From assembly GCA_018673925.1 (NCBI GenBank), contig JABHBL010000022.1, positions 62,001 to 126,000 on the forward strand: a stretch of 64,000 nucleotides of DNA, given 5' to 3'. A model generated the notes under the pieces. The model was not told the origin of the DNA and did not search any database. It saw nothing but the letters and a program-made list of their open reading frames with translations. This stretch comes from Fidelibacterota bacterium. GTDB lineage: Bacteria; Fidelibacterota; UBA8477; JABMPR01. Numbering within the stretch: position 1 is the stretch's first letter; each line of letters opens with the position of its first letter. Both the position numbers and the translations under genes were made by a program. Positions 22,318 to 42,100 of this stretch are shown piece after piece.

Positions 22318-23223
22318 TTGAAAAATATTAATCCAAAAATATTCCTGCCTGTTCTACTATTCCTCCTTTGTTTTGGGATTTCCTATGTATTCATCATGGA
22401 TATTGAAACTCACATTCCTGAACCAGTGTCCAAATTGGATGAGAAGAAAGAGACCATCTATTTTGGAGTGATTTCAAGATATTCTCCCAGATCAATCGTG
22501 AGTGGATACCAACCATTAATGGAATACCTCACGAACAATACACCCTACAATTTTAAATTGAAGCTTAGCCGGAATTATTTAGAGACCGTTGACCAACTAG
22601 CACTTGGTCGTATTGATTTTGCTTCGCTCGGTAATTATACCTACATCCATGCACATAAGAATTACGGGGTTCGGTGTATTGCTATGCCAATAAATAGCGA
22701 TGGGGACATTGAAAATTATGATGATATCATCGTTCCTCAAAATTCAGGAATTAAAAACCTGGAAGAATTAGCAGGTAAGTCATTTGCTTTCGCCTCGAAG
22801 CAATCATTCAGTTCATGGATGGGCATATGGATGTTGAAACAATCCGGTGTAGAATTAGCAGATTTATCACGCTATGAAAATTTGAGTTATCATGATCTGG
22901 TTGCAGAAAAAGTTCTTAGAGGCGATTTCGATGCAGGAATGGTTAAATCTGTGGTTGCTCGATCCTATGAGGAGTCAGGAATTCGAATCCTGGCCAGATC
23001 CCCAGCCATTCCCAGTGTCCCTCTCGTGGCAGCTGCTCATGTTGATACCTCTCGCATACGCGTGGTTCAAGCAGCCCTTTTAGAACTAAGCTCACTCATA
23101 GAAAGTGGTGAAATATCGACCTCAGGCTGGGATACTGAAGTTGCCAATGGATTTGTGGCAGGCCAAGACAGTCTTTACAATTTTCCTAGACAGATCTTGG
23201 ATGATATAGAGCAAGAGATGTAA
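22318..23223 (+). CDS. PhnD-like periplasmic phosphate/phosphonate-type binding protein
   Basis: 301 residues from TTG 22318 (weak SD). One N-terminal hydrophobic helix (~7-27) acts as a signal or anchor. The body follows the PhnD/SBP_bac family: 'YFGVISRYSPRSIVSGYQPLMEYL', in short the 'YQPLMEYL' opening, then 'LGRIDFASLGNYTYI' and 'FDAGMVKS'. Such proteins bind phosphonate, phosphite or phosphate esters for ABC uptake. No ABC ATPase or permease is present. Instead its stop overlaps the histidine kinase start by one base, so it probably serves as the sensory receptor feeding that kinase, as known for several PhnD-like proteins linked to two-component systems. Confidence 0.8.
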   Translation: MKNINPKIFLPVLLFLLCFGISYVFIMDIETHIPEPVSKLDEKKETIYFGVISRYSPRSIVSGYQPLMEYLTNNTPYNFKLKLSRNYLETVDQLALGRIDFASLGNYTYIHAHKNYGVRCIAMPINSDGDIENYDDIIVPQNSGIKNLEELAGKSFAFASKQSFSSWMGIWMLKQSGVELADLSRYENLSYHDLVAEKVLRGDFDAGMVKSVVARSYEESGIRILARSPAIPSVPLVAAAHVDTSRIRVVQAALLELSSLIESGEISTSGWDTEVANGFVAGQDSLYNFPRQILDDIEQEM

Positions 23224-24680
23224 TGAAACTCATAAACAGCATTCATGATAAGCTTGTTTTCAGAATTGGGTTAAGTCTCTCGATTGTTCTTTTGGTTCTT
23301 TTCTTTGCCATCATGACTTCGCAAAAAGAAACCATTATCGCAAAACATCGAACTGTTGCCACAACCATGATTCAAACTGCCATTATTCCCATTAACGATG
23401 CTCTTTATCTTGGTGGAGCTGATAACGATGATTTTTTGCAATCTTTTCTCAAAAATTTTGTACTGGAATATCAAGGTGAGATGAAGTTTGCCCTCATTCT
23501 CGGTGAAGGGGGACGAGTGATCGCCCACTCTGATATTTCACAGATTAATGAGATATACTCAGATGTCTACAGTAATTCTGCACTGGAGTCCCTGGATCCC
23601 CAATTTCATATCTATAGGGATAGCAAATTAGGCGGGGTTATGGAAATATCAGCACCACTTGGATTAATCACACTCTCACATGGTGCAGTTAGATTGGGCC
23701 TCGATTCTCAACCACTGGAAAGCGAACTCCGTAGCACCATGCTTTTTATCATTGGTATGATTCTATTAACCCTGGTACTTGTCATTTTTATAGTTTTACG
23801 AATTAGCCGAAACGTCACACGGGGATTGAGACATACAGCTGAAGCCATTGATGCCATAGATTTTCAAACTTCTGAGCCTCTTGAACTCCTTGAGACTGAT
23901 GATGAAATTGGGCTGCTTAATGACCGCTTTAAACGTCTTCAGGAGCGTTTGATCAATGCCCGATACAGCATGGAAATAACAAATAAAAATTTGGTACAGA
24001 CCGAAAAACTGGCCGCTATGGGACGCATGGCTGCCGGCGTTGCTCACGAAATCAATAATCCACTTCTGGGATTAAAGAATTGTCTCCATTTGCTACATAT
24101 TGATCCAGAGAATCAGGCCGATCATATACGGCTTCTTAAAGATGGACTGGATCGCATTGAGATCATTGTGTCCAGGTTGCTGGAGGGTGCCCGCAAAAAA
24201 ACAGGTACCATCAAGGACTATGATTTCAATAGAAGTGTGAGAGATGTTCTTAATTTGGTTGGTCACAGGCTTTCTAAAGAGAAGATTATCACTCAAGTGC
24301 AGCTGAATGACAAGATGCCACCTGTCTACAATAATAAATCTGGCTTTGAAGAGGCACTTTTAAATATCTGCATGAATGCACTTGATGCCATCGGCAGCGT
24401 AGGAACAATCTATCTGGAAACAGAAATCAGGGACAACAATGTTGCCGTCATTGTAGGTGATTCTGGACCTGGCATCCCCAGTGCAGAAAGATCAAGAATG
24501 TTTGAACCTTTTGTCACCTCAAAAGAAGTAGGGAAGGGGACTGGATTAGGATTATATGTATCCAGAGAGATTATTGGTTCCATGGGTGGTGAAATAAGTT
24601 ACTCAACCAGTAATCTTGGCGGAGCTGAATTCACCATTGAACTACCTATCCAAATCGAGCTTGACGAGGAAATGGAATAA
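23223..24680 (+). CDS. Membrane sensor histidine kinase (NtrB/ZraS-like)
   Basis: 485 residues. TM1 is ~13-31, a periplasmic domain of about 140 residues follows, TM2 is ~172-194, then HAMP (~195-245), a HisKA helix with phospho-acceptor His275 in 'GVAHEINNPL', and HATPase_c (~355-475) with N-box 'NICMNALDAIG', 'GDSGPGIP' and 'GTGLGLYVS'. All catalytic blocks are intact. Its start overlaps the stop of the PhnD-like gene and the regulator follows by 1 bp, so the three make one signalling operon. The ligand is inferred to reach it through the binding protein. Confidence 0.92.
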   Translation: MKLINSIHDKLVFRIGLSLSIVLLVLFFAIMTSQKETIIAKHRTVATTMIQTAIIPINDALYLGGADNDDFLQSFLKNFVLEYQGEMKFALILGEGGRVIAHSDISQINEIYSDVYSNSALESLDPQFHIYRDSKLGGVMEISAPLGLITLSHGAVRLGLDSQPLESELRSTMLFIIGMILLTLVLVIFIVLRISRNVTRGLRHTAEAIDAIDFQTSEPLELLETDDEIGLLNDRFKRLQERLINARYSMEITNKNLVQTEKLAAMGRMAAGVAHEINNPLLGLKNCLHLLHIDPENQADHIRLLKDGLDRIEIIVSRLLEGARKKTGTIKDYDFNRSVRDVLNLVGHRLSKEKIITQVQLNDKMPPVYNNKSGFEEALLNICMNALDAIGSVGTIYLETEIRDNNVAVIVGDSGPGIPSAERSRMFEPFVTSKEVGKGTGLGLYVSREIIGSMGGEISYSTSNLGGAEFTIELPIQIELDEEME

Positions 24681-24681
24681 A

Positions 24682-26034
24682 ATGTTAAAAATACTACTTG
24701 TTGAAGATGAACGCATAAATCGAATTACACTACAAAAGTTACTGGAGCATGCAGGTCATGCTGTAACCTCAGTAGAGGACGGTACAGCGGGACTAGACGC
24801 CGTTCAAAACGAGACCTGGGACGTAGTCCTCACTGACTATCGACTCCCCGGTGCTGACGGTCTGGAAATCCTTGAAGAAGTCAAACGAATTTCACCGGAC
24901 ACTCAAGTATTGATCATGACAGCGTTTGCCACAGTTGAAAACGCTCTCTCTGCCTTGAAAAAGGGTGCCTTTGACTATCTCACAAAACCTTTTGATCCTG
25001 ATGAATTATTCCATCACCTCGCCAGAATATCTGCCACCCGGGCCTTAAACTCTGAGAACGAAGTGTTGCGAGCTTCACTAGCTGAGTTGAAAGTGTCTCC
25101 TGATCTAATTGGGCAATCGGAAATTATGCGTGAACTTTTCGAAAAAGTAAAGATTGTAGCGGAGAGCGAGCACACGGTTCTGATTCAGGGAGCCAGCGGG
25201 ACGGGAAAAGAAAAGATAGCCAATGCGGTTCAAGTATTGAGTGAACGTCGCGAAAACCCTTTTGTAAAAATTAATTGCTCAGCCCTGAGTGAAACTCTTT
25301 TTGAAACAGAAATGTTTGGGCATGAGAAAGGAGCATTTACTGGAGCAGTGAAACGAGCCATTGGACGCTTCGAGAGGGCCAAGGGTGGAACTATTCTACT
25401 AGATGATATTGATGATTTGAGTATGCGGCTGCAAACCAAGCTTCTGCGAGTGATTCAAGAAGGTGAGATTGAGAGAGTAGGGGGCACCGAAGTAATTCCA
25501 GTCGATGTCAGAATCATTGCCGCTACCAAAATTGATCTGAAGTCCCTGGTTGAAAAGAAGTCCTTTCGGGAAGATTTGTATTATCGTCTTAATGTGATTC
25601 GACTTATTGTCCCCACACTGAATGAGAGGAAATCGGACATTCCATTATTGGCTCATTTCTTCTTGTCAAAGCTGAGTTCCGAAAAACAGTTATCAGCAGA
25701 GTTGATCAAGTATCTCATGGAGCTGGACTGGCCAGGCAATGTAAGGGAGTTGGAACACCTCATCATGCAAATGTCGGTGTTTTGCCGAAAAAACGTGATC
25801 GACTTGAATGATATTCCTGATTCATATCTTCCCATTCAAAGAAATATGGATGCAAAGAAGGGTGGTGAATCATCCTTGACCCAACAAGTGAACGAGTTTG
25901 AATTACAGATAATTAATGAAGCCATAAAAATACATCAAGGGAATCAGAAAAAGGTAGCTGATTCATTGGGAATCCCCAGGACGACCTTGAGGAGTAAATT
26001 GTTAAAACATGGTCTCGTGGATTTAAAAGATTAA
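24682..26034 (+). CDS. NtrC-family sigma54-dependent response regulator
   Basis: 450 residues from the ATG at 24682, one base after the kinase stop; a longer frame into the kinase gene lacks support. The receiver domain has phospho-acceptor Asp52 in 'LTDYRLPGADG' and Lys in 'LTKPF'. The AAA+ domain has Walker A 'GASGTGKE', an intact GAFTGA loop at 217-222 for sigma54 contact, and Walker B 'TILLDDID', where the usual DE is DD. The C-terminal Fis-type helix-turn-helix ends in 'GIPRTTLRSKL'. It should activate a sigma54 promoter from upstream sites, and such sites lie in the gap directly after it. Confidence 0.93.
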   Translation: MLKILLVEDERINRITLQKLLEHAGHAVTSVEDGTAGLDAVQNETWDVVLTDYRLPGADGLEILEEVKRISPDTQVLIMTAFATVENALSALKKGAFDYLTKPFDPDELFHHLARISATRALNSENEVLRASLAELKVSPDLIGQSEIMRELFEKVKIVAESEHTVLIQGASGTGKEKIANAVQVLSERRENPFVKINCSALSETLFETEMFGHEKGAFTGAVKRAIGRFERAKGGTILLDDIDDLSMRLQTKLLRVIQEGEIERVGGTEVIPVDVRIIAATKIDLKSLVEKKSFREDLYYRLNVIRLIVPTLNERKSDIPLLAHFFLSKLSSEKQLSAELIKYLMELDWPGNVRELEHLIMQMSVFCRKNVIDLNDIPDSYLPIQRNMDAKKGGESSLTQQVNEFELQIINEAIKIHQGNQKKVADSLGIPRTTLRSKLLKHGLVDLKD

Positions 26035-26132
26035 AATTATTTCTTGCTCGCCCGAAACAAAATAACTCGTTTCCCAATCATACAGAAAACTAATATCTGA
26101 ACTATATATTCCTGTCATTTGCAGGCGTGAAT

Positions 26133-26168
26133 AGACGATATCTCGTCTATAGTGACGATATCTGGTCA
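26133..26168. promoter_or_regulatory. Paired near-palindromes, candidate enhancer sites for the NtrC-type regulator
   Basis: Two 16-nt near-palindromes, AGACGATATCTCGTCT (26133-26148) and TGACGATATCTGGTCA (26153-26168), agree at 13 of 16 positions and start 20 bp apart, about two helical turns. The first extends to an 8-bp perfect inverted repeat (ATAGACGA/TCGTCTAT). They lie about 107 nt upstream of the -24 element, the usual distance for dimer-pair enhancers of NtrC-type activators. Binding is inferred. Confidence 0.6.
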
Positions 26169-26255
26169 ATAGTTTAGTGCATATTTCCCGTTGGTCATGA
26201 AATGTCCATGCTATAAGTGCAGTATAAACAAGAGTAAAGGTTCACGGGTCATTTG

Positions 26256-26270
26256 TGGCATACCATTTGG
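26256..26270 (+). promoter_or_regulatory. Sigma54-type (-24/-12) promoter
   Basis: TGGCA at 26256-26260 and TTGG at 26267-26270 have exactly the sigma54 spacing (GG, 10 nt, G-C position). Only the last -12 base differs (G for C). Transcription would start near 26282, about 45 nt before the first CYTH gene, which has an AAAGGA site. A sigma54 activator is encoded immediately upstream. Confidence 0.55.
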
Positions 26271-26326
26271 AATACATAAGGTCTGTGAATTAAAAAATAG
26301 ATCTATAAAAATAAAGGAAAACAAAC

Positions 26327-26926
26327 ATGGCAAAGATTGAATTAGGCAAGATTATCCCAAGATGGGAATGGCGAACTTTTGGTGATGAGTTTGGTGTTGC
26401 TGAAGAGAATATCAAAGCCCACGAATGCACGCGCGAAATTGAAAGTAGCGAAGTGTACATCCTTTCCAAAAAAAGTGGTGAGAATATCAAGATCAGAGAT
26501 ACACTCATGGACATCAAAGTATTGAGAAATGCCGAGAATGATCTGGAACAATGGTTTCCAATTATGAAAGCTACTTTTCCAATCGGTGCTGAAGAAGCTG
26601 CTGAAGTATTTAAGGCTGCCGGTGTTGAGGTTGAATTAAATGACGCTGATACCTGGGAATATGATGCCTTTATCTCCAAAATGGTTGATACGAATTCCGA
26701 TCTCAAGGCAGTTGGTGTTTTCAAAAAACGCTATGGCTATATGATTGAGGGTGCAACAGTTGAAATTGCAGATCTTACCATTGATGGAAAAGAAACGAGA
26801 ACAACGGCAGTTGAAGATGCTGATCCCGAATTGGTTACGAGACTCGTAGCAAAACTCGGCCTCAATGGTTACGAAAACATAAGTTATATCAAGGCTATGC
26901 GTCGCATGGTCGGTTTTGAGGACTAG
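26327..26926 (+). CDS. CYTH-like protein (tentative)
   Basis: 199 residues, soluble, no signal peptide. The first half contains 'WEWRTFG' and a strand pair 'EVYILSKKSGENIKIRD' then 'LMDIKVL'. The second half has 'VFKKRYGYMIEGATVEIADL', 'ETRTTAVEDAD' and 'NISYIKAMRRMVG'. Alternating Lys/Arg and Glu strands of this order resemble the CYTH/triphosphate-tunnel barrel, and a true CYTH gene follows 3 bp later. The classical ExExK opening is absent, so activity may be altered or regulatory. It is the first gene of the predicted sigma54 operon. Confidence 0.55.
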   Translation: MAKIELGKIIPRWEWRTFGDEFGVAEENIKAHECTREIESSEVYILSKKSGENIKIRDTLMDIKVLRNAENDLEQWFPIMKATFPIGAEEAAEVFKAAGVEVELNDADTWEYDAFISKMVDTNSDLKAVGVFKKRYGYMIEGATVEIADLTIDGKETRTTAVEDADPELVTRLVAKLGLNGYENISYIKAMRRMVGFED

Positions 26927-26929
26927 ATC

Positions 26930-27394
26930 ATGGGTCAAGAAATAGAACGTAAGTTTCTGGTCACAGCCACTACTTATCGTGATCTTGCCAAAGGTACGCA
27001 TTACAAACAGGGATACCTGAATAGTCAGAAGGAACGTGTTGTACGCGTACGCACGATTGATACGACAGGCTTCATGACAGTTAAAGGAATCACCAAGGGG
27101 GCAACCCGTCTCGAATATGAGTATGAAATTCCCGCTAAGGATGCTGATGAACTACTAGATCTCCTATGCGAACAGCCCATCATTGACAAACATCGTTATA
27201 AGGTAAAAATGGGTGATTTCGTTTGGGAAATCGATGAGTTTCATGGAGAAAACGAAGGTCTCACAGTTGCAGAAGTGGAACTGCTCTCTGAAGATCAGGA
27301 GTTTCCAAAGCCTGATTGGATAGGAGAAGAAGTCACTGGAGACCCTCGCTACTACAATTCGAATTTAATCGCCAACCCTTTCACAAAATGGTAA
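26930..27394 (+). CDS. CYTH-domain triphosphate tunnel metalloenzyme
   Basis: 154 residues, a single CYTH domain. It opens with 'EIERKFLV' (Glu4, Glu6, Lys8, the ExExK signature), then 'RVVRVRTID' with the phosphate-binding arginines, 'MTVKG', 'RLEYEYEIP', 'DKHRYKV', 'WEIDEFHGEN' and 'VAEVEL', whose acidic residues hold the metal. The length matches bacterial tripolyphosphatase-type enzymes (NeuTTM, CthTTM class) rather than class IV adenylate cyclase with its larger neighbours. The probable reaction is hydrolysis of inorganic or organic triphosphate. Its position in a run of phosphate transporters fits PPPi or polyphosphate use. Confidence 0.88.
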   Translation: MGQEIERKFLVTATTYRDLAKGTHYKQGYLNSQKERVVRVRTIDTTGFMTVKGITKGATRLEYEYEIPAKDADELLDLLCEQPIIDKHRYKVKMGDFVWEIDEFHGENEGLTVAEVELLSEDQEFPKPDWIGEEVTGDPRYYNSNLIANPFTKW

Positions 27395-27411: not shown

Positions 27412-28962
27412 ATGAAACAAATGCTGAATGATACGAAGGTGAAAATCACCCTCCGAGTAATTGGTTTAGTGCTGCTAGTTTTGGCTTTTCTTCTATTGGT
27501 CCCTTCAGCCAAGGCAGCCTTCCCAGAAAAACCCATTAAAATTGTTGTCTATACTGGACCTGGTGGTCTGATTGATATCAGTGCCAGAAAATTTGCAGGA
27601 GTGGCAGCAAAATACGTCGATGTAAATTTTGTTGTTGAGAATAAGCCTGGAGCCGGTGGTATTGTGGCCCTCAAAAAGGTTATTCAAGCACCTGCTGACG
27701 GCTACAATCTCTATGCTTGTACTAAGTCCAATATTGCAAAGTTCGTTCAAGTGGGTGGTGAGGGCTATGTCGATGCTCTTCACTGGACCGCAATGCTCAT
27801 GGCTGACCCGGAATGCGTCATTACAAATCGGAAATTGCCGATTCATAAGTGGAAAGATATTGTTTCGGATGCAATCGCTACTCCAGGGGAGCAAACCTGG
27901 GTAGGCCCTGCCGCAGGGGGACTGGATCATGTCACGGCTTTAAAGATTTGGGACAAATATGGGATGGATGCCAAGTGGATTCCCTTTAAGAGCGGTGGCA
28001 AAGCACTTGCTGCACTCCTTGGAGAGCAGGGGGTCGCTTATGTGGGAAACCCACGTGATGCACTTGGTAATCCCGACCTCTTTATTGCGGCTGTATCTGC
28101 ACCAAAACGCCTCGATGCCTTCCCAGATGTACCCACTTTTTCAGAATTAGGCATGCCGAACCTGGAAAATGAATTCATGTGGAGAGGCTTTGCTCTGAAG
28201 AAGGGAACTCCTCCTGAAGTCATTGAATGGTATGATGAACTTTTCAAAAAAGTTTCTGCTGATCAGGAATGGCTTGATTTCTGGGCAAAGGGTGGTATTG
28301 ATGTTGCCTATGTCGCCGAGCCTGAATTCTCCAAGCTGGTGAGTGAGGATGCCAAGGTATTTGAGTATTATTTGAAGAAGAGTGACATTCTTCCAGGAGA
28401 CGCTGTTGGATTTATGGCGAAATTGGCAAGTGGCACTTCCTTTAATATACTTGCAGTAATACTTATATGTCTCTGGTTATCAGGATCATACATGGTTCAT
28501 AAATCACAATACTCGGCCATATTAGGGCGAGTATTGGTTATTGGCTTCTTTTTAATTGTGAGTATACTTTTTCTTCTCCAATCTATGAATTTTCCTAGTA
28601 GCTCAGCAGTGGGGCCTGCAGCTGTCCCACGTCTTTGGATCTTTATGTTAATCCCGCTGAACTTATTGCTGCTATTCAAAACCTTTCGAAACAACGAAGC
28701 AATAGCAGAGACAGGTCCCCGCGTAGATATCGTACTTAGCTTTGTTGGATTTCTAGTCATTTATCTATTTGCCATGCAAATATTTGGATATTTCCTCAGT
28801 ACGTTTGCATTCATCATCGCAGGTCTCTACTATCTCGGTTATCGTAAATGGCGCAACACTTTCATTATAGCTGGAGTCTGGATTTTGTTCTCTTATCTCA
28901 TCTTTTATAAAACCTTATATGTTCCGCTTCCATTGGGAATGTTATTCGAAAACCTCTTCTAA
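27412..28962 (+). CDS. TctC-TctB fusion of a tripartite tricarboxylate transporter
   Basis: 516 residues. After an N-terminal hydrophobic segment (~13-35) comes a TctC-type binding protein (~37-330) with 'FPEKPIKIVVYTGPGG', 'NKPGAGG' and 'FPDVPTFSELG', all family signatures. From ~345 to the end there are about five to six transmembrane helices resembling TctB, the small membrane subunit. TctC is normally a free periplasmic protein encoded separately, so here the receptor is tethered to its own transporter. TctA follows 11 bp downstream, completing the system. The usual ligands are citrate and other carboxylates; the ligand here is unknown and the neighbourhood points to phosphate. Confidence 0.85.
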   Translation: MKQMLNDTKVKITLRVIGLVLLVLAFLLLVPSAKAAFPEKPIKIVVYTGPGGLIDISARKFAGVAAKYVDVNFVVENKPGAGGIVALKKVIQAPADGYNLYACTKSNIAKFVQVGGEGYVDALHWTAMLMADPECVITNRKLPIHKWKDIVSDAIATPGEQTWVGPAAGGLDHVTALKIWDKYGMDAKWIPFKSGGKALAALLGEQGVAYVGNPRDALGNPDLFIAAVSAPKRLDAFPDVPTFSELGMPNLENEFMWRGFALKKGTPPEVIEWYDELFKKVSADQEWLDFWAKGGIDVAYVAEPEFSKLVSEDAKVFEYYLKKSDILPGDAVGFMAKLASGTSFNILAVILICLWLSGSYMVHKSQYSAILGRVLVIGFFLIVSILFLLQSMNFPSSSAVGPAAVPRLWIFMLIPLNLLLLFKTFRNNEAIAETGPRVDIVLSFVGFLVIYLFAMQIFGYFLSTFAFIIAGLYYLGYRKWRNTFIIAGVWILFSYLIFYKTLYVPLPLGMLFENLF

Positions 28963-28973
28963 GGAACTGAACA

Positions 28974-30467
28974 GTGGAATTACTAAGCAATTTAGGAGAC
29001 GGTTTAGCATTTGTTTTAGGTGTGGTCCCAATTTTGACCATAACTCTTGGTGTGGCTATGGGAATTGTGGCTGGCGCTACACCAGGTTTATCACCTTCAA
29101 TGGGTGTAGCATTATTAGTACCATTTACTTATGCCATGTCTCCAACACTGGCATTGATTCTTCTCGTGGCTATTTACATTGCCGCTAATTATGGTGGCTC
29201 CATCACAGCTGTCACCATTAATGCACCTGGTACACCCTCATCCGTTGTTACTGCCTTCGATGGCTACCCACTAACAAAAAAGGGAAAACCAGGGTTGGCC
29301 CTTGGTGTTTCTTTGGTCTCCTCCACAGTTGGAGGTATCATTGGGACGCTGATCTTAATCTTCTTTTCAGGACCTCTGGCAAGGTTTGCGTTGAAATTTC
29401 ATCCAGCGGAATACTTTGCTCTAGCTATTTTTGGTCTTACCACGGTCGCATCCCTTGGTGGAAAAAATTGGATTAAAGCCTTCATAGCGGCAATGTTTGG
29501 CCTTCTGTTGAATACAATAGGTATTGACCCCATCTCTGGTGTGAGTCGCTTTACTTTTGGCATTTCATTTTTGTATGATGGATTTGCATTGATTCCTGCT
29601 TTGATCGGTCTTTTTGCTCTCAGTGAAATATTCAAGCAACTGGAAGGTGGCGATTTTTCCAGCCAGGCTGCAGATTCAGGGAAACAGGAATGGCCTACAG
29701 CAAGTGCTTACTGGAAGTTGAAGAATACCATTATGCGCTCCTCTTTCATGGGAACCATCATCGGTATTTTCCCTGGGGCAGGTGCTACAATTGCTGCATT
29801 CATTTCATATGATGTTGCTAAGCGTGTCAGTAAAAATCCTGAAGAATTCGGACACGGGAGTATGGAAGGGGTGGCAGCAGCTGAAGGAGCCAATAGTAGC
29901 TCTGTAGGTGGTGCACTGATCCCGTTGCTTACACTGGGAATTCCCGGAAGTGCCTCCACAGCCGTGCTTATAGGTGCCTTGATGATACATGACCTGACAC
30001 CAGGTCCACAATTATTCATCTCGAATCCAGATATTATTTACGGACTCCTCGCCAGTCTACTGCTGGCAAATATTATCCTGCTTGCGCTTGGATTCTTTGG
30101 AAGCCGTCTCTGGATAAAAGTAACTACCATTCCCAAAACGGTATTATTCCCACTGATTTTTGCTGTATCGATTATTGGTAGTTTCGCTGTGCGGAATTCA
30201 TTCTTTGATGTTGCAGCCTGTCTGGCATTTGGAGTATTCGGATGGATTCTTCGCCGATACAACTATCCAGTTGCCCCCATCATTCTTGGGATGGTCCTGG
30301 GAAATATTGCTGAAACAAATTTTATACGTGCCATCATGATGGGAGGGTGGACCGTATTCTTTACCCGCCCGTTAAGCTTGGGCATGCTTGTGGTTGCAGC
30401 CGGTAGCTTTGCAGTACCCTTAATTCAGGCTCGAAAACAATCAAAAATTCAGGAAAGAGATAAATGA
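28974..30467 (+). CDS. tctA: TctA large membrane subunit
   Basis: 497 residues starting with GTG 28974 behind AAGGA. About twelve transmembrane helices. The TctA signatures are clear: 'GATPGLSPSMGVALL', 'YGGSITAVTINAPGTPSS', 'GIFPGAGATIAAFISY' and 'LLTLGIPGSASTAVLIGAL', the two glycine-rich loops that define the family. It uses a cation gradient to import the ligand delivered by TctC. It completes the TctC-TctB fusion upstream and overlaps the DUF47 gene by 4 bp (ATGA). Confidence 0.93.
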   Translation: MELLSNLGDGLAFVLGVVPILTITLGVAMGIVAGATPGLSPSMGVALLVPFTYAMSPTLALILLVAIYIAANYGGSITAVTINAPGTPSSVVTAFDGYPLTKKGKPGLALGVSLVSSTVGGIIGTLILIFFSGPLARFALKFHPAEYFALAIFGLTTVASLGGKNWIKAFIAAMFGLLLNTIGIDPISGVSRFTFGISFLYDGFALIPALIGLFALSEIFKQLEGGDFSSQAADSGKQEWPTASAYWKLKNTIMRSSFMGTIIGIFPGAGATIAAFISYDVAKRVSKNPEEFGHGSMEGVAAAEGANSSSVGGALIPLLTLGIPGSASTAVLIGALMIHDLTPGPQLFISNPDIIYGLLASLLLANIILLALGFFGSRLWIKVTTIPKTVLFPLIFAVSIIGSFAVRNSFFDVAACLAFGVFGWILRRYNYPVAPIILGMVLGNIAETNFIRAIMMGGWTVFFTRPLSLGMLVVAAGSFAVPLIQARKQSKIQERDK

Positions 30468-34010: not shown

Positions 34011-34945
34011 CCCTGAAAATTAGAACGATTTTTATTATTGGATTTGCTTTAATCATAACTGCTTGCGCTGTTAACCCACCAGCAATTGTTGAAGTAGCGC
34101 CTGTTGAAACAGTTGAACCGGCACCTGAATATTTTCTTAACTCGAGTGAGTATAAGCTCTTACTCAACGCGGATATGTTTGGTGACTATGAGAAGGCCTT
34201 CGCCGAGTACTGGCAATTTGTTCAGGATGTAGCAGCTGCTGAGGGGATACCCGTACTAGCTAAGGAAAACCCTTTGAAACTATCTCACAAACAGGTTTCT
34301 TTCTGGGATACGGAAGGTCTTGACCTCCGAAAGAACAGCTTTTTGCTTCGTAGGAAATCAAAATATAAAGCTGGAGAAATACGCCCAGGATTCGAATTTG
34401 GTCTGAAATTTCGCCAGACTGACAAAGCGACAACTCTGTCCAAGGATCTAACAATGACTGAGGGTTATGTTCCCAAATTTGACCGGATCGAACTTGAATC
34501 TGACATTGTGTATTATTCGGCAAAGAATGGTGGCGACGATGTCACATATGCTGTCTCAAATTCAGTTCAACTTGATGATATGCCCTCAAACACATATGGC
34601 GGTTTTGTAAAAATATATCCAGTTCTTGCCACACTTGGAATTGCTGAAGAAGCTGAACTATCTAAGGTTGCAGGAGTTTTTGTAGATGAATGGATGGTCA
34701 AACCAGGTAAACTTGATTTTGGTGATGGTCTGTACGGTCGTATGGATATGAGTGTCTGGATCGTTGAAACTGAAGCAGGTGAAATGCGAATTGCTGAATT
34801 CTCCTTCGATCATGATTTCATCAAGGACAGACAATATGATGCTGAGGCCATGAAACGTTGCACAACATTTATCAATAAGCTCAATGATTATAAACCAGAC
34901 TGGTCAGAAGTGGGCAAGCTCAAAGCTGCCTATCTGTTTGAGTAA
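34007..34945 (+). CDS. Lipoprotein with CYTH-like barrel sequence (tentative)
   Basis: 312 residues. The signal peptide ends in lipobox ITAC (Cys20) and a Pro/Val/Glu-rich linker follows. Residues ~90-300 show a CYTH-like order of motifs: 'SFWDTEGLDLRKNSFLLRRK' (~98-117; the YFDT..L.LR...LRRR strand), 'EFGLKFRQTD' (~130), 'KFDRIELESD' (~158-166), and a late 'TEAGEMRIAEFSFD'. CYTH enzymes are normally cytoplasmic, so an exported relative would be unusual. The ExExK opening is missing and catalysis is uncertain. It is embedded between Na/Pi and DASS transporter genes. It could instead be an unrelated beta-rich protein. Confidence 0.55.
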   Translation: MTLKIRTIFIIGFALIITACAVNPPAIVEVAPVETVEPAPEYFLNSSEYKLLLNADMFGDYEKAFAEYWQFVQDVAAAEGIPVLAKENPLKLSHKQVSFWDTEGLDLRKNSFLLRRKSKYKAGEIRPGFEFGLKFRQTDKATTLSKDLTMTEGYVPKFDRIELESDIVYYSAKNGGDDVTYAVSNSVQLDDMPSNTYGGFVKIYPVLATLGIAEEAELSKVAGVFVDEWMVKPGKLDFGDGLYGRMDMSVWIVETEAGEMRIAEFSFDHDFIKDRQYDAEAMKRCTTFINKLNDYKPDWSEVGKLKAAYLFE

Positions 34946-34977: not shown

Positions 34978-36489
34978 TTGATGAATGCTCAAGAAATAAA
35001 TTTCGATACGAATCTGAACGTAGTTGCTCAGAGGGAATCAAGTAGGGGAGAGAATCTCACCAAGTATATTGGTTTTCCATTGGGCATCATCTTCTTTTTG
35101 ATTCTCTACCTCATGCCCACACCTGATGGCTTAACATTGGAAGCCCAGGCGGCCATAGCATCCTTTGCCTTGGCCTTAACCTGGTGGGTGACCGAACCCA
35201 TCCCCACATATGCCACATCCCTGCTACTTATGGGTCTGCTAACCTTTTTTAATGGCTGGACAGAAGATAAGGTGTTGGGTGTATTCGGATTAGAGGTGAT
35301 CTGGCTGAATATTTTGGCCTTTATCCTCAGCTCAACCCTGGTAAAAAGCCAATTAGCCAAACGCTTCGCCCTATGGATCGGTCTGCGGTTTGGACACAGT
35401 TCTTACACCATTCTTGGCGCATTTATCGTTCTTCAACTTTTTCTGGCACCTTTTATTCCAGCCACGACTGCCCGAACGGTTATGGTTCTTCCAGTGATGT
35501 TGGTAATATCATCTATCTATGGTTCTACATCAGGAAATGGAAATAATTTTGGTGTAAACCTGTTTATGCAGAACCTCCAGGGAATCAGTATTTTCTCTTC
35601 AGGTTTTATCACAGGAAGTACCTGTAATATCGTCGCTGCAGCCTTCATCTTTGAAATGGGCAATCAGAAGGTCTACTATTCTGATTGGATGTTCGGTATG
35701 CTGCCTATTACCATCATCGTTATGGCTATCTCGTGGTGGTTGGGACCTAAATATTTATTTCCCATTAAAAAGGAAGACCAGCAACCCAAGGTTAAGGGTG
35801 GCTTCGATGTCATGCGTAAAATGTTGAACGAAATGGGTGGGTTTACCGTGGCTGAGGGAAAATCAGCAGGTGTATTCCTGTTTGTCCTCTTTCTCTGGGC
35901 CACCGATCGCTTTCATGTGGGTTGGTTCGGTTTTGAGATCAGCGCTGTTATGGCAGCCCTGCTCGGTGTTGTATTTGTCTTTTTGCCAAAAATCGGTTTG
36001 TTGAAATGGAACGACGCTGATATTCCCTGGCATGTGATGATCTTTAGTGCAGGTGCATATTCCGGTGGACTCGCTTTGTTTGATTCAGGTGCGGCGCGCT
36101 GGTTGGTAGGAAGTGTTTTTGATATGGTCGGTCTTGGCGCTGATCTAAGTTTCTGGACAGTTTATATCATCATCATTGCCTTCTCTATGTACGCCCATTT
36201 ATTCTTTACAAGTAAAACGATGCGGTCCATTGTGATGATCCCAATTATTATCGCCATAGCACAGCAGTTCGGATTTGATCCTGTATCACTGGCACTACCA
36301 GCTGCCTTTACCCTGACCTGGGTAATCACCTTACCAACCAATGCTAAACCCAACCTGATCCTGTATAGCGCTGGTCAATTCTCTATTTCTGATAACTTGA
36401 AATATGGTCTCACAGTTGCTACCATAGGTGTGGTCGTCATGGTGATTGCCGGCTTTACCTGGTTCCGCTTTTTGGGGATAACGCCATGA
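34978..36489 (+). CDS. DASS-family (SLC13-like) sodium/anion symporter
   Basis: 503 residues, about eleven to twelve helices. DASS features: 'ALTWWVTEPIP', 'NILAFILSSTLVKSQLAKRFALW', 'FIPATTARTVMVLPV' (the SNT-like sodium site region) and a conserved C-terminal 'LPTNAKPNLILYSAG'. The family imports sulfate, di- or tricarboxylates, and in some eukaryotic members phosphate. Substrate is uncertain; position in a phosphate-rich operon next to Tct genes suggests a carboxylate or phosphate. The next gene overlaps by 4 bp. Confidence 0.9.
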   Translation: MMNAQEINFDTNLNVVAQRESSRGENLTKYIGFPLGIIFFLILYLMPTPDGLTLEAQAAIASFALALTWWVTEPIPTYATSLLLMGLLTFFNGWTEDKVLGVFGLEVIWLNILAFILSSTLVKSQLAKRFALWIGLRFGHSSYTILGAFIVLQLFLAPFIPATTARTVMVLPVMLVISSIYGSTSGNGNNFGVNLFMQNLQGISIFSSGFITGSTCNIVAAAFIFEMGNQKVYYSDWMFGMLPITIIVMAISWWLGPKYLFPIKKEDQQPKVKGGFDVMRKMLNEMGGFTVAEGKSAGVFLFVLFLWATDRFHVGWFGFEISAVMAALLGVVFVFLPKIGLLKWNDADIPWHVMIFSAGAYSGGLALFDSGAARWLVGSVFDMVGLGADLSFWTVYIIIIAFSMYAHLFFTSKTMRSIVMIPIIIAIAQQFGFDPVSLALPAAFTLTWVITLPTNAKPNLILYSAGQFSISDNLKYGLTVATIGVVVMVIAGFTWFRFLGITP

Positions 36490-37250
36490 AATTATTAATT
36501 ATGATCAAAACGCTTTTCGGGCTCACGATATTCACAAGTTTGCTGCTCGCTCAACAGATTGATGTGCTTGAGCAAACTGTATCTATTTCTGAAGACGGTT
36601 CTGCCCAGTTGACCTACCAGGTAATTCTCTCAGTTAGCGACAGTCTAAGCGCGGTTCAGATTCCTGCTGGATATGAGAATATGGAGATCACATCAGTTTC
36701 ATTGGATGATATTGATATCACAAACCAAACTGCAATCATCATTGATAGATCATCTCCAGTCTTTGTTATGAACTTTTACAAGAAAATTTCTGGTGAGCAT
36801 ACCATCAGTATTAATACTCAGATCAACGATTTTCTAAATTGGAATGAAGCTGGACCTGAAGAGTTTAAGACATATAACTGGGAGGTTAATTATACCAATA
36901 CATTGCCGGCCCACATTGGACGATGTGACATGACGGTTATTCTACCCTATGGTTGGAATTTCCATCGAATAACTGGAAGTGATCCAAAGTTTAAAAAGAA
37001 ACAACCCAAACCACCGTATACGTTCGCCAAGGTTGGAGATAGAGCCAGCGTTTCAATATCGAGAACTCCCATGGAATACATGGAAAATGTGGGTATTGAA
37101 TTTGCGTTTAAAAACGAGCAGAAACCCAACGTGCTCATTTGGGTAGGGATTCTGCTTAGCATACTTTATCTATATTATTTTAAGCATCTGATTCTCCGAA
37201 AAGATGCTGAACCATTAATTGATACAAATAATGACAAGGAGTCAAAATGA
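36486..37250 (+). CDS. Exported, C-terminally membrane-anchored protein of unknown function
   Basis: 254 residues. A signal peptide (to ~'LLLAQQ') and a C-terminal helix (~212-230, 'NVLIWVGILLSILYLYYF') flank a beta-rich periplasmic domain that starts 'VSISEDGSAQLTY', similar in tone to DUF2207/DUF3068-type beta domains. No catalytic residues recognised. It overlaps its neighbours by 4 bp on both sides (ATGA), so it is translated with the DASS transporter and the porin and may link inner and outer membrane parts of the system. Confidence 0.75.
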   Translation: MKLLIMIKTLFGLTIFTSLLLAQQIDVLEQTVSISEDGSAQLTYQVILSVSDSLSAVQIPAGYENMEITSVSLDDIDITNQTAIIIDRSSPVFVMNFYKKISGEHTISINTQINDFLNWNEAGPEEFKTYNWEVNYTNTLPAHIGRCDMTVILPYGWNFHRITGSDPKFKKKQPKPPYTFAKVGDRASVSISRTPMEYMENVGIEFAFKNEQKPNVLIWVGILLSILYLYYFKHLILRKDAEPLIDTNNDKESK

Positions 37251-38422
37251 AAATCCTAAAAGTGCTCTTGAGTGGTCTGATGCTATTACCACTCCTCACG
37301 TTTGGACAGGGAGTTACCGTAAGCACTGACAGTGGACTGGATGTAGTCCTTGGCGGTGAAGTGGAACTTGAGTTTATTGATGTTGAGGGAGCTGGTGGAT
37401 TTGCTAACCAGGATTTAACCTATCAGAAGGTCAGAAATCGTAGTCCACACATGCGCATTGATATGGCTGTGCTTTCAGCCCGAGTCAACTATAGCGAAAA
37501 CCTTTACTATCAAATTGAATTCCGTTTTGATGATGAAAGCGCTTATGTTGATAAACAATATGCTCGTTTGAACGTTCCAAGTATTAACACAAAGTTTGAA
37601 ATGGGAAAGAATCGCCCCTTTGTGTCTAGAAAAAGACAATCAGAAGGTTATCCGCTTGCAGGAACTGCTTTCTGGAAGGGTCGTGAAGCCCATGTCAATA
37701 GTGAAACAGAGATCAAATTAGGTGAAAATGGCAAACTTATAGGTGGATTATCATTTGCTATGAAACGTCCTCTCGGTACCGATGATGCAGCTGAAGACAA
37801 ATCATTCAAAATGATGGTTTATGATGACTACGAGCCCAAAAATGGACAGACCTTTGAATATGGGGTGAAAGCAGGAGTAGATATCGCTGGCGTTTCATTG
37901 CTTGGATGGTACTTCATGGGTGAACTCATTGATGATTGGGATTGGAAAGCCAGTCTGAAACAGTCTCTTGCTCCATACTCAAATATGGGAGATGAAACAG
38001 ACATATCTCATTATTGGATGGGTGGTAGAGCAGGATACAACATCGCTGGATTGAATTTAGTCGGTGAATATATTCAAGCTCAGGATGGATTATTGACACG
38101 TGAGGGCGCTTATGGCGAAGCATCATATTCCATGAAGGCACCGTCATTTTTGAAATCCAAAAGCATCACGCTTCTGGGACGTAATGGCTTTCTCAATTTG
38201 AAGTCAAAAAAGAACAGTGCTGGTGAAGAATTGACATGGGCTTATCTTAGTGAGGCTATGTCATGGGATAGACAAATGACTACACTTTCTGCCATGCTTG
38301 AGATTAATGACAATTTGACTCTTAAATTCGAGCATTATATTCTTGGCGAAACAACTGGGTCCGAAATTGAGTCAAGTGTGGACGACGACCAGACATTAAT
38401 GCAGATAAATTTTAGATTTTAA
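37247..38422 (+). CDS. Outer-membrane porin, OprO/OprP-like (tentative)
   Basis: 391 residues with a signal peptide (to 'LLTFGQG'), alternating amphipathic beta strands and a C-terminal Phe ('MQINFRF'), i.e. a barrel. 'YYQIEFRFDDE', 'VPSINTKFEMGKNRPFVSR' and 'HYWMGGRAGYNIAGLNLVGEY' resemble phosphate-selective porins O/P, where Arg/Lys residues line the pore. The assignment to an anion pore rests on family resemblance and operon position, last in the phosphate run with an AAGGAG site. A 51-bp gap then leads to the propeller lipoproteins. Confidence 0.72.
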   Translation: MKILKVLLSGLMLLPLLTFGQGVTVSTDSGLDVVLGGEVELEFIDVEGAGGFANQDLTYQKVRNRSPHMRIDMAVLSARVNYSENLYYQIEFRFDDESAYVDKQYARLNVPSINTKFEMGKNRPFVSRKRQSEGYPLAGTAFWKGREAHVNSETEIKLGENGKLIGGLSFAMKRPLGTDDAAEDKSFKMMVYDDYEPKNGQTFEYGVKAGVDIAGVSLLGWYFMGELIDDWDWKASLKQSLAPYSNMGDETDISHYWMGGRAGYNIAGLNLVGEYIQAQDGLLTREGAYGEASYSMKAPSFLKSKSITLLGRNGFLNLKSKKNSAGEELTWAYLSEAMSWDRQMTTLSAMLEINDNLTLKFEHYILGETTGSEIESSVDDDQTLMQINFRF

Positions 38423-38473
38423 TAGTAACCAATAAGAAGTGATAACCAAAAGTCCTTATAAGGAGGAACAAAC

Positions 38474-39718
38474 ATGAAAAAAGCTACCGTATTACTTATG
38501 GTGCTAATGGCTGCCTTTTGGGGTTGTGAAGATGACGCGGTTGATGAAGTCCCAACCTTTGATTCTTTCAGTCTTCAAACAGTTATGACTGTTGCGACGG
38601 CAACAGATGCTAACCCTGAGATTATTAGAATGGTACCTGGATCAGAAGATCAGGCCGTTTTCGTTGCCTCAGGAACAAACCAGCTCTTTAGTATTGATTA
38701 CACAACTAGTAATTTTACTGTGAATGAGCTTGCTGTATTAGAAACTGGTTCTGCAACTGCTGAGTTCACATCTATCGATGTTTCCCCACTTATTGGTGGC
38801 GAAAATTACATCGCTGTCTGTGTCGCAGAAGCTGATTGTGGACAGGGATCTATTAAGCTTGTCAAACTATCAGATCCTACATCTGTAGTTACCGTTTCTG
38901 GTATTGGTTACAACCCTGATGGTTGTGCCTTTACAAAAGATGGTAGTTTCCTGATTGTTGCTTGTGAAGATGATCGTGAAGATCGTACCTGTAAACCAGA
39001 TACCCGTCATGGTGGAAGTGTTTCAATCATCAGTTTAGAAAATGGTATTGCTAATGCATCACTGGTTCAAGACTATGCTGTTGATCATGATGTAGATTCT
39101 GAGCCAGAACACTGTGAAACTTCTGCTGATGGAACTGTTGTTGTTTCCGTTCAGGAAACCAGCGAGATCTTGGTCTTCAATGCCAATGATGCACCTCTTG
39201 AAGCCTCTGACGTAACTATCGTTTCTCTCCAGGCAGATGCTGGTGACAACGAAGCAGAACCAGATGGACTATATATCTATCCAAGTGGTGATTATGCATT
39301 GATCTCAAATGAGAGAAATGGTTCCTTCCAGATCCTCGACCTTGCTACCTTTACAGCAACTGATCCACATACGATCTTGAATGATCTCCCTAGTGGATGG
39401 CAGCATGATGCTCGGAAATCTACCAAGCAAACAGAACCTGAAGAAGCTGCAGTGATTGAAAAAGATGGTCATGTCTATGCACTTATGGCACTTCAAGAAT
39501 CACACGCTGTTGTAGCTTATGATGTTACTGATCCTGCAAATATCATTTTTGATTCTGTTGCAAAAGCTGGTTTAGATCCAGATTCTGATATGGGTATGGA
39601 AAAAAGTGAAGTCGGTTCAGAAGGCTTGGCCGTTCACCCAACAAACGGTGTAGCATTCAGTGCTAACGAGCGTGAAGGTAGTATTACTATGTTTACCGCT
39701 GAGTGGGCACGCGAATAA
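38474..39718 (+). CDS. Beta-propeller lipoprotein
   Basis: 414 residues, strong TAAGGAGG site. The signal peptide ends at Cys18 (FWGC, a loose lipobox). The mature part shows recurring blades ('DGSFLIVACEDD', 'PSGDYALISNE', 'DGHVYALMAL', 'PTNGVAFSANE') typical of seven-bladed WD40/choice-of-anchor-I-like propellers, with acidic loops that could bind calcium and several Cys in the first half. No catalytic assignment. It follows the porin after 51 bp and is closed by a strong terminator, so it may be read from the operon or its own promoter. Confidence 0.78.
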   Translation: MKKATVLLMVLMAAFWGCEDDAVDEVPTFDSFSLQTVMTVATATDANPEIIRMVPGSEDQAVFVASGTNQLFSIDYTTSNFTVNELAVLETGSATAEFTSIDVSPLIGGENYIAVCVAEADCGQGSIKLVKLSDPTSVVTVSGIGYNPDGCAFTKDGSFLIVACEDDREDRTCKPDTRHGGSVSIISLENGIANASLVQDYAVDHDVDSEPEHCETSADGTVVVSVQETSEILVFNANDAPLEASDVTIVSLQADAGDNEAEPDGLYIYPSGDYALISNERNGSFQILDLATFTATDPHTILNDLPSGWQHDARKSTKQTEPEEAAVIEKDGHVYALMALQESHAVVAYDVTDPANIIFDSVAKAGLDPDSDMGMEKSEVGSEGLAVHPTNGVAFSANEREGSITMFTAEWARE

Positions 39719-39743
39719 TCGTTTAACCTGTTTTATGTTTGAA

Positions 39744-39776
39744 AAACCAGCCTGGTTCTGCCAGGCTGGTTTTTTT
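39744..39776 (+). terminator. Strong rho-independent terminator
   Basis: AAACCAGCCTGG pairs with CCAGGCTGGTTT around a short TTCTG loop and is followed by a run of T. It ends the propeller gene and probably the whole operon starting at 26282. Confidence 0.92.
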
Positions 39777-39844
39777 AAAATAGTTTTAGTCTTCTAAGAT
39801 TTTATTATACGTCAAATATCGTAAATGGCTCATGAGGGAATAGC

Positions 39845-41083
39845 ATGCCAAAAGTGATCTCAATTCGTTTTCTATTATTTGTAATAAGTTTTATAATTCT
39901 TGTGGCCTGTGCAATCAAGAGTGAGTCTTCAATACCAACAAAAGATGCCATCTCACCAATAAATATTTTCCCAAACCCACAAAGTGGGTATGGTGCAGCA
40001 CCCGACCAGTTGGCCCAACCAGATGATGTGGAAATAATGGAAAATGGTGATCTCATCATCTCAGATGTGGACAACAATCGTATTCAGGTTTTTTCAAGCG
40101 ATGGAAACCTTCTTAAAACTATTAATGCTGGAACTCTAGGAATAGCAAACTCGGACATTGTTCCAACAGGCATAAGTAGTGATGGAGCGGGATATATATA
40201 CATCACTCTTGAAGGGATTGGTTCCGTTGCCAGGTTCAATGCTGATATGACGCTTGATCAATTAATAGGATATCAGGGAAAAGTCTCCTCAGATGAGTAT
40301 TATCTCGATGAAAATGATGGCCTCCTCATCAAACCCCAGGGGATTATTGTTTCTCAAAGCGGTGACATCTATGTCGCTGATATGGATAAAACCATATTCC
40401 GAATAGAGGGTGTGTATAATTTTGGCTTTAGGAAATTCAAGCAGATCGTTACCAGTGATGGAACGAGTTATATATACGATAAGGAATATGCGGCGACCCA
40501 GGAAGTAACCAAAATTATGCGCAAAAGTGAGGGGATGGCGATCTCAGAGGAAAGAGGATTACTCTTTGTGGCTGAGGAAAAACCCCAGAAGAGTCAATTC
40601 GGGAACTCTGAAAAGTTTCGCTATATCGGTGTGTTTGACCTCACCACGGGAAAGTTTAAAAATCGCCTCATTGGCGTTGAAATGGTCGATGGCAAGATTA
40701 CAACTGGGTATTCTAAAGACTCAATCGAAGGCTTGAGTGTTTTTGGTCAATATATTTTCGCTGTAGATGAAAAGGCTGGTCGAGTCGACTGCTATAACAT
40801 TGAATCAGGGGAAAGGGTCGCTCATTTTGGAACCCGTGCGCCATTTTATTGTGATGATGAATCAGATTGTGTTATCGATGGTGTGAATTATAATGAGCAA
40901 AACATCATTGCAGGTGGAGCACAGGTACATCTGCTCAATGATTGGCATAAAAATGAATTGGCTTCTCCTGATGGAGTTAGCACGAGAACTTTGCTCACTG
41001 GAGAAAAGATTCTCGCAGTAGTAGATCAATGGAATTCACGAATTCTGACTTATGATCTAAATGATATTTTGGGAATGCATTAG
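39845..41083 (+). CDS. NHL/phytase-like beta-propeller lipoprotein
   Basis: 412 residues with lipobox LVAC (Cys22) and a GAGGGAA site. The N-terminal part has an NHL-type blade ('LAQPDDVEIMENGDLIISDVDNNRIQVF', i.e. the 'DNNRIQVF' motif). The later blades 'AISEERGLLFVAEE' and 'SIEGLSVFGQYIFAVDEKAG' resemble those of phytase-like and esterase-like propellers. Phytases of this fold bind calcium with acidic residues, which are plentiful here, but the exact ligand set cannot be confirmed by eye. Its place after a phosphate-transport operon makes a phosphoesterase role attractive but unproven. Confidence 0.7.
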   Translation: MPKVISIRFLLFVISFIILVACAIKSESSIPTKDAISPINIFPNPQSGYGAAPDQLAQPDDVEIMENGDLIISDVDNNRIQVFSSDGNLLKTINAGTLGIANSDIVPTGISSDGAGYIYITLEGIGSVARFNADMTLDQLIGYQGKVSSDEYYLDENDGLLIKPQGIIVSQSGDIYVADMDKTIFRIEGVYNFGFRKFKQIVTSDGTSYIYDKEYAATQEVTKIMRKSEGMAISEERGLLFVAEEKPQKSQFGNSEKFRYIGVFDLTTGKFKNRLIGVEMVDGKITTGYSKDSIEGLSVFGQYIFAVDEKAGRVDCYNIESGERVAHFGTRAPFYCDDESDCVIDGVNYNEQNIIAGGAQVHLLNDWHKNELASPDGVSTRTLLTGEKILAVVDQWNSRILTYDLNDILGMH

Positions 41084-41107
41084 ACACTAATTGATGGGCT
41101 ATCACCT

Positions 41108-42100
41108 TTGAATCGAAAAATCTACATACGAATATTTCTACTAATTATTGCTTCAAGTGTCTTCTTAAGCTGCGATGGCTCAAAAGAAACACCACTGGCA
41201 AAAATAATAACAGAGCAATCCAGGTTTCTCAAAGGCTATCCCATTGAATTCAGTGCAGATTTAAAAGCTGGTGAAGATGCCAGCGACTACGAATTCACCT
41301 TCGATTTTGGTGATAGCATATCTAGTACTGGTTCTGATGTAGTCCACATCTATAATTCACCTGGAAATTACACAGTTACTCTCACCATAACTGGAGCTAC
41401 TGGTTCAGAAAAAGACACCAGAGACATCAAGGTTGTAAATTCGCTGGAATTGATGGCTATTTATACTGTCCGAGTGGATTCACCCTCAGGCTTAAGTTTT
41501 GGCAGTGATAAGAGCACACTCTGGACCGTGAGTGACAAACCCGGTGGCCGCATATTTGAAATAGACACATTAGGTAATCTGATGCGATCATTGAACTACA
41601 GTGGTAACGATCTGGAAGGCATTAGTTTTGACTCCAGAGACTCCACGCTCTGGATGGTCGATGAAAATCTAGGTCAACTCATACATCTTGAATCAGATGG
41701 TCGCACCCTTGGCTATCAGAATATTTCAAGTGTGGGTGATGGGGGAGGACTTGAGGGAATCTCAATAGATGAGGACCACTCGAGAATATTCATGGTTAAG
41801 GAGAAAGACTTTGGGGCCTTGATTACCATCGATGAATTATCCCTGACTCAAACTTTACAGCAGATTTCCTTTGCACCAGATTTCTCAAGTATTTCTTACA
41901 TCTCCTCCCAGGACAAACTCTGGATTCTCAGTGATGAAGCCTCAAATGTCTATCTAGTCAATCTAGATGGTAGTTTTCAAGATGCCTATGCCATTGATAT
42001 GGTTCAACCAGAGGGGTTAGTTTATGATGAAGAACATCAAGTATTCTATATCATAGATGATACCACAGAGAAATTACATAAATATAAATTCTGGGACTAA
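41108..42100 (+). CDS. PKD plus YjiK/CarP (SdiA-regulated) beta-propeller lipoprotein
   Basis: 330 residues starting at TTG 41108, with Cys22 (FLSC) as probable lipid site. Residues ~30-115 form a PKD domain ('FDFGDSISSTGSDVVHIYNSPGNYTVTLTI', here cited as the 'FDFGD...YTVTLTI' pattern). Residues ~120-330 are a YjiK/CarP-type propeller with repeated 'LEGISFD', 'LEGISID' and 'PEGLVYD' blades. CarP of Pseudomonas aeruginosa, in this family, is described as a calcium-linked putative phytase. It lies 24 bp after the NHL lipoprotein, with DUF523 following by 5 bp. Confidence 0.78.
   Translation: MNRKIYIRIFLLIIASSVFLSCDGSKETPLAKIITEQSRFLKGYPIEFSADLKAGEDASDYEFTFDFGDSISSTGSDVVHIYNSPGNYTVTLTITGATGSEKDTRDIKVVNSLELMAIYTVRVDSPSGLSFGSDKSTLWTVSDKPGGRIFEIDTLGNLMRSLNYSGNDLEGISFDSRDSTLWMVDENLGQLIHLESDGRTLGYQNISSVGDGGGLEGISIDEDHSRIFMVKEKDFGALITIDELSLTQTLQQISFAPDFSSISYISSQDKLWILSDEASNVYLVNLDGSFQDAYAIDMVQPEGLVYDEEHQVFYIIDDTTEKLHKYKFWD

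Follow-up and report, generated by a model that had tools for sequence, protein, structure and literature searches.

In a 64,000-nucleotide stretch of contig JABHBL010000022.1 (hereafter the window) from a marine Fidelibacterota (Marinimicrobia) bacterium, there is a real, sensor-controlled operon, whose defining unit is CYTH1, a conserved tunnel-fold family matching no Pfam or NCBIfam model among the members tested, together with a polyphosphate/triphosphate hydrolase. Transporters swap around this unit, which an earlier, sequence-only reading of the same DNA had not foreseen. The module probably couples phosphoanhydride hydrolysis with phosphorus-anion transport, and our best overall reading, which we put forward tentatively, is that it serves the acquisition of phosphorus oxyanions. 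Sister metagenome-assembled genomes (MAGs) place the host lineage in Candidatus Neomarinimicrobiota (Fidelibacterota).

CYTH1 has no relative in the PDB by sequence and no match in Pfam or NCBIfam searches, so that a fold comparison was required. Its AlphaFold2 model (pLDDT, the predicted local distance difference test, 94.8) returns thiamine triphosphatase, YgiF and AtTTM3 as top Foldseek matches; as modelled, CYTH1 belongs to the triphosphate-tunnel (CYTH) fold. Residues R12, E14, R16, E42, K55, R57, K64, E74, K81, K133, R135, E146 and E163 are invariant among 58 sequences, and CYTH1 looks catalytically equipped. When GTDB species genomes were scanned with a CYTH1 alignment, by means of two short conserved peptides, 75 loci in at least ten phyla emerged; synteny was scored by tblastn, as the open reading frame (ORF) lists in GC-rich loci were partly antisense. 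The slot after CYTH1, being either the next gene or a fused domain, holds a polyphosphate/triphosphate hydrolase in 70 of the 75 loci (52 Ppx/GppA exopolyphosphatases and 18 CYTH2 proteins, never both in the slot). The best NCBIfam model for the Ppx partner is TIGR03706 (exopolyphosphatase), with a score under its cut-off, and CYTH1-Ppx fusions occur in Pseudomonas, Rhizobium, Thiobacillus and actinobacteria. Furthermore, a second sample was chosen with a hidden Markov model within the window's phylum, as an independent check on the short-peptide scan: CYTH1 is present in 59 of 245 genomes, with CYTH2 as the next gene in 36 of the 40 loci read. Since CYTH2 stands next to CYTH1 here and Ppx in most other phyla, the triphosphatase and the exopolyphosphatase occupy one slot.

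In the window, the pair lies within the following run of features.

22318-23223, + strand: PhnD-like periplasmic sensor with an N-terminal membrane anchor (PF12974, 2e-50)
23223-24680, + strand: histidine kinase (Pfam domains HAMP, HisKA, HATPase_c)
24616-26034, + strand: NtrC-type sigma-54 activator (Response_reg, Sigma54_activat, HTH_8)
26134-26147, no strand assigned: upstream activator dyad 1, GACGATATCTCGTC, kept in seven relatives
26154-26167, no strand assigned: upstream activator dyad 2, GACGATATCTGGTC, kept in relatives
26256-26271, + strand: sigma-54 −24/−12 promoter, TGGCATACCATTTGGA, one mismatch against the consensus
26327-26926, + strand: CYTH1, unnamed triphosphate-tunnel family (RWEWRTFG), the module core (AlphaFold2 and Foldseek)
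26930-27394, + strand: CYTH2, predicted NeuTTM-like inorganic triphosphatase (PF01928, 1.9e-15)
27412-28962, + strand: TctC-TctB fusion, binding protein plus small membrane subunit (PF03401 and PF07331 in a single frame)
28974-30467, + strand: TctA large membrane subunit (PF01970, 2.8e-158)
30464-31105, + strand: DUF47 (PhoU-like, PhoU_div) accessory protein of PiT (PF01865)
31108-32208, + strand: PiT-type phosphate transporter, PHO4 (PF01384)
32208-34010, + strand: NptA Na+/phosphate transporter with a PhoU domain (PF02690, PF01895; NF037997 above cut-off)
34007-34945, + strand: CYTH-fold lipoprotein, lipobox Cys20, predicted extracytoplasmic (AlphaFold2 and Foldseek)
34978-36489, + strand: DASS anion symporter (PF00939; TIGR00785 above cut-off)
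36486-37250, + strand: membrane-anchored DASS companion, no confident family
37247-38422, + strand: predicted outer-membrane barrel (signal peptide, C-terminal Phe; no family match)
38474-42100, + strand: three lipoproteins, namely choice-of-anchor I, NHL repeats, and PKD with an SdiA-regulated/phytase-like propeller (library matches)

All genes named in the sequence-only reading lie where it had put them, most of them with families assigned by Pfam, and six gene junctions overlap by 1-4 bp, as it had described. Its 'CYTH-like' labels for the genes at 26327 and 34007 are borne out by AlphaFold and Foldseek, which give a triphosphate-tunnel fold, and library matches agree with its three propeller lipoproteins. 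Its 'porin' at 37247 has fared less well: the protein carries a signal peptide and ends in Phe, but matches no family in Pfam and NCBIfam searches, and no homology to Porin_O_P was detected (hhalign probability 7%). Some relatives carry a Porin_O_P protein inside the cluster, specifically Cloacimonadota, Bacteroidota and one species of the window genus. Homologues of the anchored protein adjoin DASS in Bacteroidota (hhalign 98.5%) and likewise in Acidobacteriota and a proteobacterium (tblastn, reading frame). The activator probably starts at ATG 24682 rather than TTG 24616.

An anion transporter is near CYTH1 in 59 of the 75 loci and in 26 of 40 in the second sample, the partners being TctCBA, PiT/DUF47, NptA, DASS, a GlpT-like antiporter and SulP. 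Clostridia have TctCBA alone, generally without a phosphate transporter; Cloacimonadota have TctCBA with DUF47-PiT; Bacteroidota and Acidobacteriota have DASS with the anchored protein (L078, L063); Proteobacteria have SulP with a third CYTH protein; and Fidelibacterota mini-operons comprise CYTH1-CYTH2 followed by NptA or PiT, without TctCBA. The transporters are interchangeable around a constant CYTH1-hydrolase pair. Such constancy beside transporters that vary among five or six unrelated families would suit a regulatory device, in which CYTH1 would sense an oligophosphate or nucleotide signal, its hydrolase partner would reset that signal, and the two together would gate the neighbouring anion transporters, by analogy with the SPX domains that gate eukaryotic phosphate transporters. 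The invariant charged tunnel residues of CYTH1 and the presence of the pair also beside TrkAH and SSF fit this explanation. However, CYTH1 appears catalytically equipped, the slot is occupied across phyla by a degradative enzyme and in no case by a kinase or synthase, and no structural hint of contact with a transporter has emerged, although none was sought; we therefore consider a regulatory device unlikely.

Several loci show further variation around the pair. Two of them (L169:5313-8614 and L197) have the order thiamin pyrophosphokinase, SSF symporter, diverged CYTH1 (RFEFRSFG) and CYTH2, possibly a thiamine-triphosphate variant, and another (L168:4562-8444) has TrkA, TrkH, CYTH1 and CYTH2, placing the pair beside potassium uptake. 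In L090, L091, L103 and L093, a CYTH1-Ppx fusion is accompanied by a third CYTH gene, with SulP in several Proteobacteria and, in some, DUF1538, a Na/Ca exchanger or glycogen phosphorylase close by. In L045 (1926-4010), an NptA with a bacterial Ig-like (Big_1) domain directly follows CYTH1-Ppx.

The TctC proteins of these loci are themselves distinct. Thirty-seven CYTH1-linked TctCs from seven phyla, with that of the window among them, form a single clade (Shimodaira-Hasegawa-like approximate likelihood ratio test, SH-aLRT, 99) apart from 25 unlinked TctCs, in a quick tree with some long outgroup branches, and several of the unlinked TctCs come from the same genomes as linked ones. In one Clostridia family, represented by 150 genomes, CYTH1 is present in four, and the clade TctC is found in exactly those four, at the same positions, and is absent from the 146 genomes without CYTH1. 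The TctC scores are 438-508 bits in the four carriers versus at most 155 bits elsewhere; as two of the four had been fed into the TctC query profile, it is the score gap, not presence, that serves as the test. That a unit of patchy occurrence keeps a constant composition suggests a function for which all of its parts are needed. The alternative is a loose neighbourhood, in which independent phosphate, carboxylate and sulfate operons share a regulator and the CYTH enzymes are general housekeeping proteins; this would accommodate the gene content that differs among species and the inclusion of three lipoproteins without an assigned role. The dedicated TctC clade, its exact co-occurrence with CYTH1 in the Clostridia family, and one conserved promoter with an enhancer pair make that alternative quite improbable.

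The 292-bp gap before CYTH1, which can be aligned in seven relatives, contains this promoter and enhancer pair. The two dyads are spaced 20 bp centre to centre and are themselves the only two exact matches of the dyad pattern in the 3.4-Mb genome; for a wider dyad regulon in the genome, there were only single-mismatch matches, at a count equal to or below that of the reversed control. The TGGCA..TTTGG promoter box is kept in seven of seven relatives, and its −12 element is GG, not GC, in all seven; one-mismatch sigma-54 matches are not rare in the window, and the evidence for the promoter is conservation. At the sequence level, both features of a sigma-54 regulon, a −24/−12 promoter and upstream activator sites, are found, and the layout is apparently that expected of an NtrC-type activator serving one operon. 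The single sigma-54 promoter with dedicated enhancers supports the reading of these genes as one regulon. In one related locus (L012:5033-6014), the activator and CYTH1 are set further apart by an insertion of ~0.7 kb that contains a small ORF, with enhancers and promoter retained.

The best solved relatives of the sensor are ArrX, the top match, and PtxB. Pocket residues Y87, S163, S165 and H192 are kept across 12 aligned loci, with S163 replaced by Thr in one, and the pocket is, judging from these residues, of the phosphorus-oxyanion type. Kinship with ArrX and AioX, as well as an ArsR-family regulator ahead of the cluster in Cloacimonadota, could suggest a regulon for arsenate/arsenite or another non-phosphorus oxyanion. 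However, Cys106 of AioX, which coordinates arsenic and is conserved across the AioX/ArxX/ArrX subfamily (PMC5908839), is replaced by Gly (Gly105) in 12 of 12 sensors, and the annotated cluster genes include no arsenic enzyme. Arsenic sensing was rejected on the missing cysteine, and a regulon for a non-phosphorus oxyanion is highly improbable.

CYTH2 most closely matches NE1496 (NeuTTM) in the PDB. Its residues Tyr29 and Lys52, equivalent to NeuTTM Tyr28 and Lys52, are invariant, and an ExExK-type motif is present. NeuTTM is a specific inorganic triphosphatase with the signature Tyr28/Lys52, and the role of such enzymes is unclear (PMC3440374). The lipoprotein encoded at 34007-34945 has no Pfam match and only chance-level matches in the PDB by sequence. 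Its AlphaFold2 model (pLDDT 74) has HpAC1 triphosphatase, AtTTM3 and YgiF as top Foldseek matches, with VTC4 lower, and the protein is distantly related to the cytoplasmic CYTH3 that adjoins CYTH1-Ppx fusions. On this model, it is a CYTH-fold protein predicted to reside outside the cytoplasm.

The cluster is more than chance, as its order recurs within the genus and its core recurs across phyla. Specifically, the gene order proposed in the sequence-only reading is kept, whole or clipped at contig ends, in about a dozen (at least 12) same-genus genomes, running sensor, CYTH1, CYTH2, TctCB, TctA, phosphate transporters, CYTH lipoprotein, DASS, anchored protein, barrel and propellers. DUF47-PiT is swapped for a second NptA in several species, and DASS with the anchored protein is swapped for a GlpT/UhpT/PgtP-like antiporter in two; one species lacks the block from the lipoprotein to the barrel and has a Porin_O_P protein and an LTD lipoprotein there instead. 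The order of the three propeller-region lipoproteins is retained across same-genus loci. SdiA-regulated/phytase-like propellers (L158:7976-10273; window 41108-42100), elsewhere with LTD domains, recur beside CYTH1 clusters. Elsewhere in the window, the stretch 18095-21263 possibly serves muropeptide recycling: the gene at 18095 encodes an NlpC/P60 peptidase with SH3 domains, and that at 20238 a member of the enolase superfamily (MR_MLE). Type IX secretion features are encoded at positions 13-8386, where one protein is a PorV-like barrel and another bears a Por secretion tail.

The distribution of polyphosphate synthesis genes bears on the origin of the substrate. Among 40 carriers, two entries of which are apparently one genome, PPK1 is absent from 33, PPK1 and PPK2 are both absent from 18, and PPK1, PPK2 and VTC are all absent from 16. 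Most carriers without PPK nevertheless have Ppx, which is what an external source of the substrate would predict. In the window genus, a tandem PPK2 pair is present, and PPK1 absent, in every genome tested (G000 contig C10:42206-43910, outside the window). The window genome, like most of the genus, also encodes a VTC-domain protein of the polyphosphate polymerase type (G000 contig C105:53921-54619, outside the window).

The module could instead work as an internal battery, in which Ppx or CYTH2 cuts a polyphosphate store, PiT and NptA export phosphate to build an ion gradient, and this gradient drives carboxylate import by TctCBA and DASS. Both transporters belong to classical carboxylate or sulfate carrier types, and polyphosphate-accumulating organisms use a comparable scheme with acetate. 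The two PPK2 genes in the window genus are in keeping with such a battery, and in a published model (PMC3994843) polyphosphate is degraded and export via the Pit system follows. However, the lack of PPK1 and PPK2 in 18 of 40 carriers, 16 of them also without VTC, disfavours purely internal polyphosphate cycling. In addition, TctCBA of Clostridia is generally without a phosphate transporter, NptA of the Fidelibacterota mini-operons is without TctCBA, and the sensor is of the phosphorus type; we judge the battery distinctly unlikely.

We return to the acquisition of phosphorus oxyanions. The PPK and VTC absences with Ppx kept, the sensor pocket, the CYTH-fold lipoprotein and the Porin_O_P barrels are most simply read together as pointing to phosphoanhydride compounds or related phosphorylated anions of external origin that are carried in and cut to phosphate. 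In such a scheme, the sensor would bind a phosphorus oxyanion and switch the operon on, and the barrel would pass the substrate across the outer membrane. TctCBA, or DASS in other phyla, would carry an oligophosphate or related phosphorylated anion into the cell, where CYTH1 and its partner (the triphosphatase here, the exopolyphosphatase elsewhere) would cut the chain to phosphate, and PiT/DUF47 and NptA would balance phosphate across the membrane. That TctCBA imports intact oligo- or polyphosphate is suggested by association and replacement, and is possible but doubtful; with similar reserve, TctCBA or DASS might be a dedicated bacterial importer for such chains, which CYTH1 and Ppx or the triphosphatase would cut inside. 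The regulon for phosphorus compounds proposed in the sequence-only reading is the best-supported direction, given the sensor pocket and the single sigma-54 promoter, whereas its substrate (phosphate, polyphosphate or phosphate-carboxylate compounds) can only be inferred.

Several points weigh against acquisition from outside. PiT and NptA fit a pure uptake scheme awkwardly, and no recognised anion transporter is nearby in 16 of 75 loci and in 14 of 40 of the second sample, some contigs being short. Those TctC relatives that have been solved with a named ligand bind organic acids, and the clade-specific TctC residues (K60, K263 and several Trp; mean net charge −9) give no convincing indication of a site for polyanions. 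The Ppx/GppA proteins may instead act on pppGpp. One CYTH1 stands without a hydrolase, and a few CYTH1-CYTH2 pairs lie beside thiamin pyrophosphokinase and SSF, or TrkAH; several transporters may have recruited the pair as a general unit for triphosphate handling or for sensing. The window genome, with two PPK2 genes and a VTC-domain protein, may itself make polyphosphate, and the PPK absences may partly reflect incomplete MAGs, which weakens, but hardly removes, the argument drawn from them.

The module makes two questions testable, namely how external polyphosphate is imported and what specific inorganic triphosphatases such as NeuTTM do. Some marine microbes use external polyphosphate, and a 2026 Haloferax paper states its import route as unresolved (PMC13318637); import through TctCBA or DASS, if true, would explain how it enters cells. 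In the open-access literature, we found no description of the constant pairing rule, the triphosphatase swap, the transporter partners, the TctC clade or the operon, and nothing relevant on a link between TctCBA and polyphosphate or on a bacterial polyphosphate importer.

Parts of the module resemble known systems. DUF47-PiT, NptA and OprO/P porins are families present in these clusters, and to our knowledge they have not been known as joined to CYTH/Ppx and TctCBA. Like known tripartite tricarboxylate transporters, the TctCBA encoded here has all three subunits; unlike them, its TctC belongs to a separate, CYTH1-tied clade. CYTH-exopolyphosphatase fusions are mentioned in the CYTH literature (PMC8233210) and resemble the CYTH1-Ppx fusions described above. 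CYTH2 shares with NeuTTM of Nitrosomonas the EIERKF motif, the Tyr/Lys signature and the length, but, unlike NeuTTM, it nearly always follows CYTH1, usually with transporters. PhnD-like XSR sensing modules are known for arsenic (PMC5908839), and the AioXSR, ArxXSR and ArrXSR systems, like the operon described here, combine a PhnD-like binding protein for sensing, a histidine kinase and an NtrC-type sigma-54 activator. In contrast to the AioX and ArrX systems, the sensor has Gly in place of Cys106, no arsenic oxidoreductase is linked among the annotated cluster genes, and the operon under its control comprises transport and phosphoanhydride genes rather than arsenic redox enzymes.

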